Below, one piece after another: positions 136-5,814 of a stretch of 64,000 nt of DNA (the first letter of the stretch is position 1; each line of letters begins with the position of its first letter). The translations under genes and the position numbers were made by a program. This DNA comes from Ferruginibacter lapsinanis (GTDB lineage Bacteria; Bacteroidota; Bacteroidia; Chitinophagales; Chitinophagaceae): assembly GCF_020783315.1 (NCBI RefSeq), contig NZ_CP086063.1, positions 806,001 through 870,000 on the forward strand, written 5' to 3'. A model generated the notes under the pieces. That model had not been told where the DNA came from. It saw only the letters and a program-made list of their open reading frames with translations, and made no database searches.

Positions 136-1584
136 TCACTCTCCACTAATCTCATCCCTCCTCTTCTTAAATTTCCTCGGATCCGTTCCATCCATCTGTA
201 CAATAGCCGGATAAAATCTCCCCAACACATCCACCAAAGTATTTTGACAGGCCATCACTTCATTAATATCCTTATAAGCAAAAGGCGCTTCATCCAAACC
301 ACCACCGATCAGTTTTACACCATGTGCTTTCAATTCATTCTTCAATGCTTCATGAGTAATATTAGCCAGTGCTTTGCTTCTGCTCATTTTTCTTCCTGCT
401 CCATGAGATGCAGAATTCAAAGAAGTTGGTTCACCTTTACCTTTTACAATAAAGCCCGGTGCAGTCATAGAGCCGGGAATAATTCCCAATACATCCTTGC
501 CTGCCGGTGTAGCACCTTTCCGATGTACGATCACTTCTTTGCCTTCATACATTTCTTTCCATGCAAAGTTGTGATGGTTCTCTACTCTTGCAATTGGTTT
601 CTCTCCAATCGCTTTTGCAATTTTTGCATGTATGGTATGATGACAAGCACTTGCATAGTCTCCCGCCAAATTCATAGCCAGCCAGTATTCCATACCTTCT
701 TCAGTATCCAGATCCAGCCATGCTAAATGTTTAGCTTCTTTTGGCAACACAGTTTTTTGCATCGCAATTTGTGTGTAGTAGTTGGCAATATTTGCGCCCA
801 ACCCTCTGCTACCACTATGGCTCAACAAGCCAACATAATTACCAACTGCCAATCCCATCGGATTGTCAGCATCAGTAATTTCCACTTTCCCAAACTCTAC
901 AAAATGGTTACCACTACCGGAAGAGCCTAACTGCTTCAACGCTTTATGTTGTAATGATTGCAAGAAATTTATTTCTGAAAATTCTTTTCTGTCCAGTACT
1001 TCATGTTCAGTTCTTTCAGCAAATTCTCTGCCTGCACCAAACAATGTATTGGCTACTAACTCTCTTTGAAAATAGGCTTCTTTCTTTTTCAAAGCATCCG
1101 GTTCAATCGCAAAAAAGCTCAAACACATTCTGCAACCAATGTCTACACCCACTGCATACGGAATGATGGCATTATCTGTTGCCAACACACCACCAATCGG
1201 TAAGCCATAGCCCTGGTGGGCATCAGGCATTAACGCACCGGCCACTGCCACTGGCAATTTCGCTGCGGTTTGCATTTGCAATAAAGCACCTTCTTCAATA
1301 TGTTTGGCACCGAATACATTGTATGCCACACTATTTTCATTCAACGGAATTTCTGTAGTTTCTTCTATTACAGGTTCAATTAATTTTTCTGCAATTTTAG
1401 ATAACACTTCATCCGCCAGATAATTTTCCGGAGTAGCTAATACATCTTTTAATATTTGCAATGCTTCTACTTCTGTATGATGTTTAAAGTGTGTGCACAT
1501 GGCATGCATGGCCACACTTACCACCGGCCCTTCTTCGTAGCCGATAGCCCGGATCTGTTTACCGGTTAATTTTAATTTGCTCAT
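136..1584 (-). CDS. rtcB: RNA-splicing ligase RtcB
   Basis: RtcB joins RNA ends carrying a 2',3'-cyclic phosphate or 3'-phosphate to 5'-OH ends, using GTP and Mn2+; it seals tRNA exons in archaea and metazoa and repairs broken RNA in bacteria. The 482-residue product carries the family motifs in order: GVDIGCRM near 146-153 with the metal-binding Asp and Cys, GSGNHFVE near 223, SHSGSRG near 255, ENHHNF near 335, HRKGATP near 354, IIPGSM near 368 and SASHGAGR near 391. The His in the last motif (about 394) corresponds to the guanylylated nucleophile. All expected catalytic residues are present, so the enzyme should be active. It is last in a minus-strand module with tRNA-like genes, an AAA ATPase and a slipin. 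No RtcA cyclase, archease or RtcR activator is visible nearby. Confidence 0.96.
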   Translation of the reverse strand: MSKLKLTGKQIRAIGYEEGPVVSVAMHAMCTHFKHHTEVEALQILKDVLATPENYLADEVLSKIAEKLIEPVIEETTEIPLNENSVAYNVFGAKHIEEGALLQMQTAAKLPVAVAGALMPDAHQGYGLPIGGVLATDNAIIPYAVGVDIGCRMCLSFFAIEPDALKKKEAYFQRELVANTLFGAGREFAERTEHEVLDRKEFSEINFLQSLQHKALKQLGSSGSGNHFVEFGKVEITDADNPMGLAVGNYVGLLSHSGSRGLGANIANYYTQIAMQKTVLPKEAKHLAWLDLDTEEGMEYWLAMNLAGDYASACHHTIHAKIAKAIGEKPIARVENHHNFAWKEMYEGKEVIVHRKGATPAGKDVLGIIPGSMTAPGFIVKGKGEPTSLNSASHGAGRKMSRSKALANITHEALKNELKAHGVKLIGGGLDEAPFAYKDINEVMACQNTLVDVLGRFYPAIVQMDGTDPRKFKKRRDEISGE

Positions 1585-2212: not shown

Positions 2213-3316
2213 TTATTTCTGCGGCACAAAGATCTGCTTCAACTGATCGATCAAAACGCCATTACCATTTACGCTGATGTTGCTGATCTTGTCGGCAATT
2301 TTTTCTACGTATTCCATCTCTTTCAATTTCCACAACATGGCATTGTCTTCCATCAATTTTGCAGTGTTCAACAAGCTACGGGTGCTGGCAGTTTCTTCTC
2401 TACGCATAATGCTGTTGGCCTGTGCGTTCTTTTCTGCTACCAACACTTTGTTCATGATGTCTTTTACATCGCCTGGCAAAATGATATCACGGATACCGAA
2501 ACCATTTACGCTAACACCCAATTCGTCAGCAGCAGTTTTTACTGCTTCCAAAATGAATGGAACGATGGAATCTTTTTTCTCCAACAATTCATCAAAAGCC
2601 AAACCTCCCACATACTCACGCAATGCCAACTGGAAAGCCATATACAACTGACGTTCGTAATCTTTGTTTTGCAACACAGCTTTTTCTACATCTGCTACTT
2701 TGTATTGGGCATAACCGTTGATACGCAATGCAGCTTTATCTTTGGTCAATATCTCCTGACCATTGATCTCTATTTGCTGCATACGGATATCGATCACACT
2801 CATTACGATAGAGATGTTATTCTTCCACCAGAAGTAAATACCTGCTGGCAAAATTTGTACATACTTTCCATCAATATACACCACGCCTTTTTCAAAGTTT
2901 GCCACATTGAACACACGTACGTATGGTGCTACCAAAGGGTTCTGCAACACAGCACGACTGATGTTTTCAGTGATCTCGATCTTGCCGATATCTGCTTTAA
3001 TGAAATCGAATTGATTGACTTCGCTCTTCCAATAAGCATAACGACCGGCAGTCAACACTTGCTTCAACAAACCGTTTTCATAACGCAACGCAATTTCATT
3101 GTCATTTACTTCAATCACCTGCAAAGCATTTGCCAATGCAGCATCTTGCAATAAAATGTTTAATTCTATTGGTGCAATGAAGGGTTTAGTTACATCATAT
3201 ATCATTGCGGTTTCTCCAAACCACAACCAATAGTTTCCTTCAGTCAACATTTTTTTGTACACGCTATTTTTAAATACCAAGGCTACCTGGTAGGCGTTGA
3301 TCATGATTTTTTTCAT
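2213..3316 (-). CDS. Slipin / band-7 (SPFH) family protein
   Basis: This 367-residue protein resembles the SPFH/band-7 (stomatin, prohibitin) family, which forms oligomeric rings and scaffolds. The recognisable part is the middle to C-terminal half: GVVYIDGKYVQILPAGIYFW near 143-162, ISIVMSVIDIRMQQIEINGQ near 167-186, the QLALREYVGG segment near 228, and the alpha-helical QANSIMRREETASTRSLLN tail near 300. No N-terminal transmembrane helix or signal peptide is visible, unlike classical stomatins, so it is probably cytosolic or peripheral. Slipin genes recur beside rtcB in other bacteria, which I recall from comparative genomics of RNA-repair operons. Here it lies between the permuted tRNA-like block and rtcB. 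Its role in RNA repair is unknown. Confidence 0.88.
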   Translation of the reverse strand: MKKIMINAYQVALVFKNSVYKKMLTEGNYWLWFGETAMIYDVTKPFIAPIELNILLQDAALANALQVIEVNDNEIALRYENGLLKQVLTAGRYAYWKSEVNQFDFIKADIGKIEITENISRAVLQNPLVAPYVRVFNVANFEKGVVYIDGKYVQILPAGIYFWWKNNISIVMSVIDIRMQQIEINGQEILTKDKAALRINGYAQYKVADVEKAVLQNKDYERQLYMAFQLALREYVGGLAFDELLEKKDSIVPFILEAVKTAADELGVSVNGFGIRDIILPGDVKDIMNKVLVAEKNAQANSIMRREETASTRSLLNTAKLMEDNAMLWKLKEMEYVEKIADKISNISVNGNGVLIDQLKQIFVPQK

Positions 3317-3607: not shown

Positions 3608-3691
3608 CTACATTACCAATTGTAGCGTTCTTCCATTGAACTATCCATCGCTGTCGATGAAGCAGGAATCGAACCTGCACTGATTGTCTAC
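3608..3691 (-). tRNA. Permuted tRNA-like gene, unit I (Pro TGG or Thr GGT anticodon)
   Basis: On the minus strand the 3' part comes first: T-arm GCAGG-TTCGATT-CCTGC (3678-3662), then acceptor strand TTCATCG (3661-3655). After a 4-nt linker (3654-3651) follows the 5' part: acceptor strand CGATGGA (3650-3644), TA, D-arm GTTC-AATGGAA-GAAC (3641-3627), G26, and anticodon arm CTACA-ATTGGTAA-TGTAG (3625-3608). The two acceptor strands form seven pairs, one of them T-G. The 5' sequence ahead of this T-arm (GCGGTGA) does not pair with TTCATCG, so an ordinary gene order is excluded. The anticodon loop has 8 nt; it reads TGG, or GGT if an A is bulged. CCA is not encoded. A mature molecule would require joining in or near the variable region. 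Confidence 0.6.
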
Positions 3692-3761
3692 TGTTCTAAC
3701 CGCTGAACTATCACCGCTTAAGGTGAAAGGGATTCGAACCCTTGACCCGTAGGTTGTGGAG
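3688..3761 (-). tRNA. Permuted tRNA-like gene, unit J
   Basis: Minus-strand order is: anticodon-stem half CCTAC (3753-3749), 5-nt variable loop GGGTC, T-arm AAGGG-TTCGAAT-CCCTT (3743-3727), acceptor strand TCACCTT (3726-3720), AA linker, acceptor strand GCGGTGA (3717-3711), TA, D-arm GTTC-AGCGGTTA-GAAC (3708-3693), A26 and GTAGA. TCACC pairs with GGTGA across the linker, and CTAC pairs with GTAG, with an A-C mismatch at 31-39 like that in the Phe gene at 5085. The result is a cloverleaf open at the anticodon loop, as in permuted tRNA genes of red and green algae. GTAG at 3688-3691 is shared with unit I. The sequence preceding CCTAC (CTCCACAA, 3761-3754) could supply a CCA (Trp) anticodon. Confidence 0.55.
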
Positions 3762-3910: not shown

Positions 3911-4987
3911 TTAATTCATTGCGACTTCATTTCTTCTAAAACCCATTACTTCCACTCTTTCTGGTTTATATTCCTTTTCATTTGGATTCGCAATTTCTGC
4001 TATGGTCATCGGCTTTGTAATGACATTACTAAACCCAAAATGATCACTCAACTTTTGCGCCTTATCAATTCCTAATTTTCCGAATTCATATTTTGCAATC
4101 AATCTTCCTTTACGCATCAATGCACTATCTACAAGTGTTAGCGAATTGTTGAATGTGCAGATCAACTGTACATTTAAAAAATCTGCCAATAGTCCATCCG
4201 AAATATTCAACAGGTTTGATACGGATGACCCGTTACTTAGTTTTCTATCCATGATGATGTTTTCAGCATCTTCAATTATCAACACTGTATTCGGGTTATC
4301 TATCAATAACTCAACAAACTCAGGATTCATAAGGTTATCAGCTACCGTTGGTGATAAGAATAACACACGCTTTTTTATTTTACCTATCAAATGACGCAGG
4401 TAAGTTGTTTTGCCTGTACCGGGTAATCCGTGTAGCAATACAATCCCTTTATCTTTTTTAGCATTGAGTCTTTTACGTATCACTTCGTCTGTTTCTTTAA
4501 AATCATCCTCATAAAAAAGATCCAGATCCAGTTTCGTTCTTTTGATCTCCATTGCCTTCAGATCGAGCCCTCTGCCATTACGTACAATAAGGTTTATCTC
4601 CAATGGCTGACGTCTTTGTTTTTCTTTAAATTGATTTACCAGGTCTGTCAGCTCCTGTACAAAAGCATCTTGCTTGCCATCGTGCAATATTTCGCAATAG
4701 TCATCATCAAATTCCAGTAAGCAATTATTTTTTAAAATGATCACTGTTTTATCGAACTGATATCTTTTCTTTTCTCTTTTATACCATCTGTACTGATGCA
4801 CATGAGAGATAAGTTCTCTGTTTTTTTCTTTAAATACGTCGAATGCTTTTTCCCCATCAATGTTGTTTACAAAACTTAAACTCGGCAGTTCGTTGAAACA
4901 ATACAGGTATAATATTTTCGTATCCAAAAAACGATCATCAAACACATTGTTTGCATTGATAACTTTCTGGTTAAATAAATTGTCCAT
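3911..4987 (-). CDS. AAA ATPase of the RtcB/tRNA module
   Basis: This 358-residue protein has an unrecognised N-terminal half followed by one AAA domain: Walker A GLPGTGKTTYL near 187-197, Walker B TVLIIEDAE near 235, sensor-1-like ICTFNNS near 277, and RKGRLIAKYEF near 292, which probably holds the arginine finger. The spacing and the GRLIAKYEF segment recall Bcs1-like AAA proteins, but there is no transmembrane helix. AAA proteins remodel protein or RNA-protein complexes; the substrate is not evident here. It is flanked on both sides by tRNA-like genes on the same strand, and an 18-nt motif shared with the slipin leader lies 54 nt before its start. I infer a role with RtcB and the slipin in handling these RNAs. 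Confidence 0.8.
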   Translation of the reverse strand: MDNLFNQKVINANNVFDDRFLDTKILYLYCFNELPSLSFVNNIDGEKAFDVFKEKNRELISHVHQYRWYKREKKRYQFDKTVIILKNNCLLEFDDDYCEILHDGKQDAFVQELTDLVNQFKEKQRRQPLEINLIVRNGRGLDLKAMEIKRTKLDLDLFYEDDFKETDEVIRKRLNAKKDKGIVLLHGLPGTGKTTYLRHLIGKIKKRVLFLSPTVADNLMNPEFVELLIDNPNTVLIIEDAENIIMDRKLSNGSSVSNLLNISDGLLADFLNVQLICTFNNSLTLVDSALMRKGRLIAKYEFGKLGIDKAQKLSDHFGFSNVITKPMTIAEIANPNEKEYKPERVEVMGFRRNEVAMN

Positions 4988-5084: not shown

Positions 5085-5158
5085 TGGTGCTCCAAGGAAT
5101 TGAACCTCGATCTCCGGGATTTCACTCCGGCGCATATATGCCATTCTGCCAAAGCACC
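5085..5158 (-). tRNA. tRNA-Phe (GAA)
   Basis: The cloverleaf has a 7-bp acceptor (GGTGCTT with GAGCACC, last pair T-G), a 3-bp D-stem, anticodon arm CCGGA-GTGAAAT-CCCGG, variable loop AGATC and T-arm CGAGG-TTCAATT-CCTTG, with discriminator A. The anticodon reads GAA after T33. The innermost anticodon-stem pair is an A-C mismatch. CCA is not encoded. It is the last gene of the array and lies close to the AAA gene on the same strand. Confidence 0.8.
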
Positions 5159-5170
5159 TTTTTGTTCCAG

Positions 5171-5242
5171 AGGATGAAGAAAGAGTCGAACTTTCAACAC
5201 TTGCCTTAACAGGGCAACGCTCTACCGTTGAGCTATTCATCC
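5171..5242 (-). tRNA. tRNA-Asn (GTT)
   Basis: All stems are complete: acceptor GGATGAA/TTCATCC, D-arm GCTC-AACGGTA-GAGC, anticodon arm TTGCC-CTGTTAA-GGCAA, T-arm GAAAG-TTCGACT-CTTTC. The anticodon is GTT. The discriminator reads T, where G is usual for Asn. CCA is not encoded. Confidence 0.9.
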
Positions 5243-5247
5243 TTATG

Positions 5248-5321
5248 TTGGCTCGGTGAGACTTGAACTCACAACTCCCGGATTAAAAGTCCGGTGCATC
5301 TACCAATTGAGCTACGAACCA
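5248..5321 (-). tRNA. tRNA-Lys (TTT) with a bulged D-stem
   Basis: Acceptor TGGTTCG/CGAGCCA, anticodon arm CCGGA-CTTTTAA-TCCGG, variable loop GAGTT, T-arm GTGAG-TTCAAGT-CTCAC and discriminator A are all present. The D-stem reads GCTC on one side and GATGC on the other. This is one nucleotide more than the standard GAGC and leaves a bulged T. The extra base is unusual for a functional tRNA. Confidence 0.8.
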
Positions 5322-5326
5322 GTCTG

Positions 5327-5399
5327 TGATGACTAAAGGACTTGAACCTTTAACCACTATCGTATCAGGATAGCACTCTGCCAATTGAGTTAAGTCATC
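5327..5399 (-). tRNA. tRNA-Ile (GAT)
   Basis: Acceptor GATGACT/AGTCATC, D-arm ACTC-AATTGGCA-GAGT, anticodon arm CTATC-CTGATAC-GATAG and T-arm AAAGG-TTCAAGT-CCTTT pair fully, with discriminator A. The anticodon is GAT. CCA is not encoded. Confidence 0.9.
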
Positions 5400-5403
5400 T
5401 CAG

Positions 5404-5475
5404 TAGCGGCTACAAGAATCGAACTTGTATTGATTGGTTTATGAGACCAAGGTGTTACCATTACACTAAACCGCA
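5404..5475 (-). tRNA. tRNA-Met-like (CAT)
   Basis: The acceptor TGCGGTT/AGCCGCT has a T-T mismatch at the first pair and one T-G wobble. The D-arm GTG-TAATGGTAA-CAC, anticodon arm TTGGT-CTCATAA-ACCAA and T-arm ACAAG-TTCGATT-CTTGT are intact. A mismatch at 1-72 is typical of bacterial initiator tRNA, but the anticodon stem lacks the three G-C pairs of initiators. CAT could mean elongator Met, or Ile if the first anticodon base is lysidine-modified. Confidence 0.8.
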
Positions 5476-5479
5476 ATAT

Positions 5480-5573
5480 GTGCGACTTTCAGATTTGAAC
5501 TGAAAACATTCCTCTTATGTTTACCTCTCAGAAAGGGAGGAAGAAGAACGTGTTGCCGTTACACCAAGCCGCA
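5480..5573 (-). tRNA. tRNA-like gene with an extended anticodon arm
   Basis: The acceptor TGCGGCT/AGTCGCA, D-arm GTG-TAACGGCAA-CAC, variable loop TGTT and T-arm TTCAG-TTCAAAT-CTGAA are normal for a class I tRNA. Between G26 and the variable loop there are 40 nt instead of 17. They fold as an 8-bp helix (TTCTTCTT with AAGAGGAA, one T-G), then a 4-bp helix (CCTC/GAGG) with a 9-nt loop and a 7-nt bulge (TAAACAT) on the 3' side. This looks like a tRNA with about 23 nt inserted in the anticodon loop, that is, an intron-like insertion. A Glu (TTC) reading with a long variable arm is possible but leaves 8 nt unpaired. Confidence 0.6.
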
Positions 5574-5658: not shown

Positions 5659-5662
5659 ATGT

Positions 5663-5693
5663 TGCGTCCCTGCTGCAACTAACAGGGATCGCA
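5663..5693 (-). other. Stable hairpin at the head of the tRNA array
   Basis: On the minus strand TGCG-A-TCCCTG pairs with CAGGGACGCA: ten pairs with a single bulged A and a 10-nt loop. It lies 5 nt ahead of the first tRNA. No T-run follows on the minus strand, so it is not an obvious terminator. Its outer end resembles the acceptor ends of the neighbouring tRNAs. It may be a processing signal or a separate small RNA. Confidence 0.5.
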
Positions 5694-5814
5694 TTTTCCT
5701 CCTTCTGCAACTAATATTTTATTCTGCGTTTTATACGGTTGAACAAAGCATTTGCTATTGCTTGTATCAACCATATTGATATTAAAAATGTCATGTCAAT
5801 CTATTTTTATCCGG

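Follow-up and report, generated by a model that had tools for sequence, protein, structure and literature searches.

A conserved tRNA-like RNA of Chitinophagaceae whose anticodon arm is lengthened, from islands of tRNA arrays and RNA-repair genes

The locus and its genes

A 94-nt tRNA-shaped gene lies on the minus strand of a 3.46-Mb single-contig bacterial chromosome, in the 64,000-nt stretch of DNA analysed here (the window; Table 1). On the same strand it is preceded by a Pro-like tRNA and followed by Met, Ile, Lys, Asn and Phe tRNAs, and then by genes for an AAA ATPase (P0001), a Band-7 protein and the RNA ligase RtcB. The combination of a tRNA array with AAA, Band-7 and RtcB genes in one neighbourhood is that of an RtcB-linked tRNA-array island, and the same set recurs in many relatives. 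The array represents an extra set of tRNAs, since 34 of the 42 tRNA matches in the genome lie outside this locus. ATPases like P0001 were found in 119 of 394 genomes of the family at E ≤ 1e-40. A search with a defence library returned two weak ATPase-type matches and nothing more.

Table 1. Features of the island in the window
Feature	Position	Strand	Basis
RtcB RNA ligase, ~4 kb from the 94-nt RNA	136..1584	-	PF01139; phrog_1075
Band-7/SPFH protein	2213..3316	-	PF01145
Short tRNA-like RNA without anticodon arm	3654..3716	-	Rfam RF00005, 33.4 bits; fold
AAA ATPase P0001, following these arrays	3911..4987	-	Pfam PF00004
Array tRNA-Phe (GAA)	5085..5158	-	tRNA search
Array tRNA-Asn (GUU)	5171..5242	-	tRNA search
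Array tRNA-Lys (UUU)	5248..5321	-	tRNA search
Array tRNA-Ile (GAU)	5327..5399	-	tRNA search
Array tRNA-Met (CAU)	5404..5475	-	tRNA search
94-nt tRNA-like RNA, lengthened anticodon arm	5480..5573	-	cloverleaf, 39 distinct sequences, covariation
40-nt anticodon arm (normal, 17 nt)	5509..5548	-	folding and comparative alignment
One-sided 3′ bulge UAAACAU (family ~YAARYAK)	5517..5523	-	alignment
Conserved inner hairpin with a UUUCU loop (drawn as an anticodon stem-loop, 5 bp and CUUUCUG)	5524..5540	-	alignment conservation, covariation
Array tRNA-Pro-like (UGG) with C33	5586..5658	-	tRNA search
Leader: AGAAGGAGGAA (Shine-Dalgarno-like), then strong hairpin	5660..5717	-	found by eye; fold

The composition of these islands varies among relatives. 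An RNase H-like protein (PF04308), common in such islands and absent from the window, accompanies the array in 17/17 loci with the 94-nt element and 12/15 loci without it, a difference that is not significant by Fisher test. Nine copies in the family have no strong AAA neighbour. Eight of these were inspected, six of them with 16 kb of neighbourhood, and RtcB was found in one of the six; the island partner therefore varies. Ro60 (TROVE) genes lie within or beside islands at L111/L023, L113, L115, L123, L125 and L142, and at L111 and L113 Ro60 is present with no RtcB found in the stretch examined. Relatives of the AAA ATPase also occur in 21 viral contigs (L193-L213), several longer than 300 kb, two of which carry 10-11 tRNAs in the stretch examined.

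A tRNA body with an enlarged anticodon arm

Outside the anticodon arm the 94-nt RNA is an ordinary cloverleaf, with a 7-bp acceptor stem, a 4-bp D stem, a 4-nt variable loop, a 5-bp T stem and an acceptor end that is that of a normal tRNA, in agreement with the normal sizes assigned to these parts by the initial annotation. Across the family helices 1, 2 and 5 are paired in 98.8, 99.3 and 98.9% of cells, and the GG of the D loop and the TTC of the T loop are conserved. The similarity to the array tRNA-Met (CAU) is in the D arm and acceptor. Where a tRNA would have a 17-nt anticodon arm with a 7-nt loop, U33 and an anticodon, the element has a 40-nt arm, which bears out the earlier description of a tRNA-like gene with extra nucleotides at this position. 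The single sequence folds with a minimum free energy of -27.7 (z -2.7).

Standard gene finders do not recognize the element. It was missed by ARAGORN with default settings, and Rfam RF00005 gave no match even at E ≤ 5. With introns allowed, ARAGORN reports the window copy as a tRNA-Gly(TCC) with a 20-nt intron. A conserved family gene thus appears to have gone unnamed because annotation tools either skip the RNA or assign it contradictory isotypes.

Homologues and phylogenetic distribution

Homologues were collected by several routes. BLAST against 59 relatives returned three from the same genus at 86, 76 and 83% identity (the 83% match is partial), and three of 30 loci examined from the ATPase search yielded further copies, each called intron-bearing by ARAGORN and adjoining a tRNA-His. 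A covariance model (R1) built from the first seven homologues detected the long form in 27 of the 394 genomes of the family, at scores of at least 64.9 bits and lengths of 88-95 nt; the lower-scoring matches were ordinary tRNAs of 67-74 nt with a single exception. That exception (G389:C113:7120-7213, or L237 1121-1214) is a lone, different 94-nt tRNA-like sequence with another long hairpin in the anticodon arm, and ARAGORN found no tRNA in the 2.5 kb around it. Together with three congeners the element is present in 30 Chitinophagaceae genomes. Among 80 named ATPase loci, 17 carry the long form, in a fixed slot near RNA-repair genes with tRNA-His upstream in 15/17 and tRNA-Arg downstream in 10/17; cultured carriers include Lacibacter luteus (L092), Terrimonas pollutisoli (L091) and Foetidibacter luteolus (L113). 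The 39 distinct sequences comprise 29 of 94 nt, six of 95, two of 93, one of 88 and one of 116, so that 37/39 measure 93-95 nt.

The known range is confined to the family. In a sample of 348 genomes of the order the element was found in 10 (E ≤ 1e-8), all Chitinophagaceae, and in a sample of 345 genomes of the phylum the only 94-nt match was in the window's own genome, the other matches listed being 71-72 nt long; no long form was thus seen outside the family in either sample, with the proviso that samples of more than 40 genomes were searched with stricter filters that may miss weak members. A 25-base pattern search of named contigs gave 0 matches. A phage origin was also considered and rejected: phage records gave only three fragmentary matches (20-32 nt, E 0.8), and two patterns did not find the RNA in viral contigs. 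At the 21 viral AAA loci the model returned four matches of 71-76 nt, except for one of 111 nt at L202 (E 6e-4), the sequence of which was not judged to be the same RNA.

Comparative structure of the arm

The initial annotation described the arm as an 8-bp and a 4-bp helix with a 7-nt bulge. That model holds as the minimum free energy fold of the window sequence, but the first and last of its eight outer pairs are each paired in only 16 of 36 aligned sequences. Comparative folding instead gives a 6-bp outer helix, a one-sided 3′ bulge of 7-8 nt and an inner hairpin of 6 bp; in 16/36 sequences the outer helix has one more pair on its inner side. RNAalifold arrives at the same arm when no structure is supplied. 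The inner hairpin may be drawn as a UUUCU loop on 6 bp or, equally well, as the 7-nt loop CUUUCUG on 5 bp, the 7-nt sequence being found in 29/36 (UUUUCUA in 3/36).

These comparisons rest on alignment A6, which holds 36 of the 39 distinct sequences (the 88-nt, the 116-nt and one of the 93-nt sequences are excluded). In it 94.9% of cells are paired and both-side changes occur in 20 of 30 pairs, values of pairing or covariation that 0/500 shuffles reach; slid controls pair at 37.8-48.6%. The element is beyond chance, because there are 39 distinct homologous sequences and all helices but the D stem show both-side covariation, and the observation of a tRNA-like gene with a long anticodon arm is confirmed. 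The additional segment is also well conserved in sequence: mean entropy per column is 0.46 bits in the first strand of the inner stem, 0.22 in the loop, 0.38 in the second strand and 0.64 in the bulge, as compared with 1.14 and 1.13 bits in the two strands of the canonical anticodon stem. In the 36 aligned sequences the insert is conserved to about the same degree as the acceptor, D and T regions, and much better than the anticodon stem. The element is a real, conserved oddity of Chitinophagaceae.

Short palindromes (CCCGAAAGCTTTCGGG and kin) occur in the D, T and variable loops of array tRNAs at L003, L004 and L119. As such palindromes are found in tRNAs neighbouring the element, and in the T loop of the L119 homologue itself, the element might be a degenerate tRNA pseudogene struck by one of them. 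Covariation among the homologues, and a length that hardly varies in 39 sequences, contradict this explanation and the insert is unlike the palindromes, leaving it hardly credible.

Is the additional segment an intron?

The initial annotation took the extra nucleotides for an intron, and rightly noted that the segment is far too small for a group I intron. The self-splicing core of a group I intron spans a few hundred nucleotides; the arm here has only 20-23 nt extra, and Rfam intron families gave no match to the element. The remaining possibility is a protein-spliced tRNA intron, in which some 20-21 nt would be cut out by an endonuclease and the halves joined by RtcB to give a tRNA-Met(CAU) or tRNA-Gly(NCC). 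After such a removal ARAGORN does fit a tRNA of 73-74 nt, and a suitable ligase is encoded in the island, in line with the RtcB-type ligase that the initial annotation proposed beside an endonuclease. No match to the EndA-family endonuclease domain (PF01974) was found in the genome at E ≤ 10, although an endonuclease of another kind might serve. Nor is the ligase specific to the element: RtcB is as frequent in array loci without it (13/15) as in those with it (12/17; Fisher p = 0.40, short contigs included).

The glycine frame is the best showing of the intron reading, with a glycine anticodon (CCC or UCC) in 32/36, R37 in 36/36 and U33 in 28/36, so that the product would nearly always be tRNA-Gly. 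However, two pairs within that spliced 7-nt loop, at loop positions 32-38 and 33-37 (alignment columns 33-62 and 34-61), are Watson-Crick or wobble in 36/36 and covary, with four and eight both-side changes, respectively. A working anticodon loop makes a U-turn, and such pairing is not expected within it. In another frame a perfect UUCAUAA loop appears in 13/36, but the anticodons there are CAT in 14, TAG in 19 and others in 3 of the 36. Between 8 and 18 of the 36 lack U33, according to the frame, and ARAGORN assigned six of the first seven homologues to five isotypes (Gly, Met, Met, Ala, Leu, Thr). Removal of the segment therefore leaves no constant loop of consistent isotype.

Base 73 gives a separate line of evidence. 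It is C in 38/39 sequences, which fits neither Met nor Gly: in these genomes base 73 is A in tRNA-Met (14/14 in arrays, 7/7 in the genomes' own set), U in tRNA-Gly (6/7 and 5/5) and A in tRNA-Leu (8/8 and 1/1). C73 is the rule only for tRNA-His (21/21 and 1/1) and was otherwise seen in two Ser and one Phe. In tRNA-His a G is expected at the base before the RNA; the base preceding the element is A in the four copies aligned. An insert-free orthologue was not seen among 26 short model matches that were aligned, because all 26 lack C73.

The segment also behaves unlike known introns. In archaeal and eukaryotic protein-spliced tRNAs, the canonical intron site is described as lying 1 nt to the 3′ side of the anticodon (PMC4090602), and the element resembles these in having extra nucleotides in the region of the anticodon loop. 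It differs in lacking a constant anticodon loop, in its one-sided bulge where a bulge-helix-bulge would be expected, and in an insert that is not variable but conserved and of near-constant length. A variable insert between constant flanks had been proposed as the signature to look for among homologues, and the opposite was found. The pattern that the initial annotation named as telling against an intron, a conserved long arm with a Glu anticodon, is largely what the alignment shows as far as the arm is concerned; the tip loop contains UUC, but a Glu-decoding tRNA is not claimed. The initial interpretation is thus supported in part. Splicing is an unlikely explanation, a rebuilt tRNA mimic being more likely than a spliced tRNA, and a conserved intron with a function of its own may be an alternative.

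Other RNAs of the islands

A second unusual RNA accompanies the islands. Armless tRNA-likes of about 56-65 nt (~61 nt), which keep the acceptor, D and T arms and have no anticodon arm, lie a few hundred nucleotides downstream of the AAA gene; in addition to that of the window, relatives were found at L028, L029, L035, L051, L091 (9293), L093 (9274), L117 (9249) and L120 (2954). The array tRNAs have peculiarities of their own in loci L083-L160. Those called Leu (CAG/UAG) are only 74-76 nt long and lack the long variable arm of a normal tRNA-Leu, tRNA-Pro has C33 in some loci, and tRNA-Glu often has U37. Anticodon loops are normal in most other array tRNAs, so many of these may well decode. The armless RNA and the odd array loops support a non-decoding side of the islands.

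The leader is conserved in 16 of 80 named loci in addition to the window. Its relatives consist of AGAA(A)GGAGGAA, a stable hairpin with the loop GUGAGAUGCAGC and a U-run (for example, at L083 5986, L117 6227 and L108 7920); the window leader has a diverged loop and was found by eye, not by regular expression, and regular-expression matches at L126 and L129 were dropped as false because no such hairpin follows. Rfam searches with two leader stretches gave no match. Shine-Dalgarno sequences are described as rarely used by Bacteroidia (PMC8710568), which makes it conceivable that the leader is a ribosome-sensing attenuator.

Retention of the leader also raises the possibility that the 94-nt element is a regulatory RNA, whose pyrimidine-rich arm (CUUCC...UUUCU) would base-pair with the operon's own purine-rich leader, AGAAAGGAGG, or mimic the 3′ end of 16S rRNA. 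In 9/10 loci it is the arm that forms the best duplex with the leader of that locus, and 3 to 50 of 200 shuffles do equally well there, but purine-rich and pyrimidine-rich sequences pair easily and L083 fails (121/200 shuffles). Leaders also occur with no 94-nt match at L090, L098, L102, L108, L144, L145 and L160, and the one exact 16S 3′-end sequence searched for in this genome was not found. Leader-arm pairing is at best weakly suggested, and a regulatory function of this kind appears very unlikely.

A protein-binding alternative is a Y RNA of the YrlA type, the tRNA-mimicking partner of Ro60/Rsr. Ro60 genes are present in some islands (L111/L023, L113), and bacterial Y RNAs are described as carrying a tRNA-like domain (PMC7790460). 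However, this genome has no TROVE gene, TROVE is found in 3/30 genomes with the RNA as compared with 6/24 without it, no Rfam Y-RNA match was obtained, and the acceptor end is not altered, all of which make a Y RNA most improbable.

A proposed role as a tRNA mimic

The 94-nt RNA is probably a stable, unspliced tRNA mimic of an RNA-repair and tRNA-array island that does not take part in decoding. It would act as a full-length molecule, in which lengthening of the anticodon arm by a conserved 21-nt hairpin-plus-bulge is proposed to make decoding no longer possible. The island of which it would be part unites a leader and a tRNA array with genes for an AAA ATPase, a Band-7 protein, RtcB or Ro60 and, in many cases, an RNase H-like protein, and may serve to replace or repair cleaved tRNAs. 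One could speculate that the tip, which has the dimensions of an anticodon stem-loop (5 bp with a 7-nt CUUUCUG loop), is a bait for an anticodon-cutting RNase or, alternatively, a ligand that lets an island protein sense such damage; bait or sensor is preferred because a tip on an over-long arm should not decode. The loop of array tRNA-Glu is CUUUCUA in 6/13, sharing CUUUCU with the element, and that of one housekeeping tRNA-Glu examined, CUUUCAC, differs from the tip. A bait or decoy role is thereby weakly suggested by shape and loop likeness, the loop being of low complexity, pyrimidine-rich and one of many compared.

Placement of the RNA in a response to tRNA damage follows from the resemblance of the island gene set to that repressed by TrcR in Anabaena, where a trn array, rtcB, slipin and an AAA ATPase are described as released under translation stress (PMC10272220). 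Bacterial, phage and plasmid tRNA arrays and the Anabaena trn operon resemble the present array in carrying extra clustered tRNAs beside the chromosomal set, and the Anabaena system too includes a gene described as an AAA ATPase. Unlike the TrcR regulon, the genes here form one island that includes the long-arm 94-nt and armless tRNA-likes. The rsr-yrlBA-rtcBA repair operons (PMC7790460) are similar in linking RtcB or Ro60 with a tRNA-mimicking RNA, and differ in that this genome lacks Ro60 and the element keeps a standard acceptor stem with an altered anticodon arm. Phage tRNAs that evade anticodon nucleases are described as extra tRNAs with altered anticodon loops (PMC10264068), a likeness seen here in array Pro with C33 and Glu with U37; the 94-nt element, in contrast, is chromosomal, and its arm is structurally rebuilt, not point-mutated.

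The armless RNA, as a second apparently non-decoding tRNA-like in the same kind of island, is counted in favor of a tRNA mimic. More tentatively, and with somewhat less than even confidence, the islands may encode a class of non-decoding tRNA mimics derived by rebuilding of the anticodon arm (one long, of 94 nt, and one armless, of ~61 nt) that would act as lures for, or gauges of, RNA-cleaving toxins or damage; they would work alongside RtcB or Ro60 and the AAA and Band-7 proteins, and might be controlled by a leader that responds to ribosomes whose anti-Shine-Dalgarno end is free. No paper among the titles and abstract openings surveyed dealt with a tRNA-like RNA of this kind, with an extended anticodon arm and a place in such islands, and an earlier mention of the island itself is possible.

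At stake is what array tRNAs do: they may be decoders, substitutes for cleaved tRNAs, or bait. A tRNA mimic tied to RNA repair would provide a handle on the purpose of bacterial RtcB islands and tRNA arrays and, if the interpretation is correct, the 94-nt RNA would be a clear case in which the tRNA fold has been retained and the decoding arm rebuilt.
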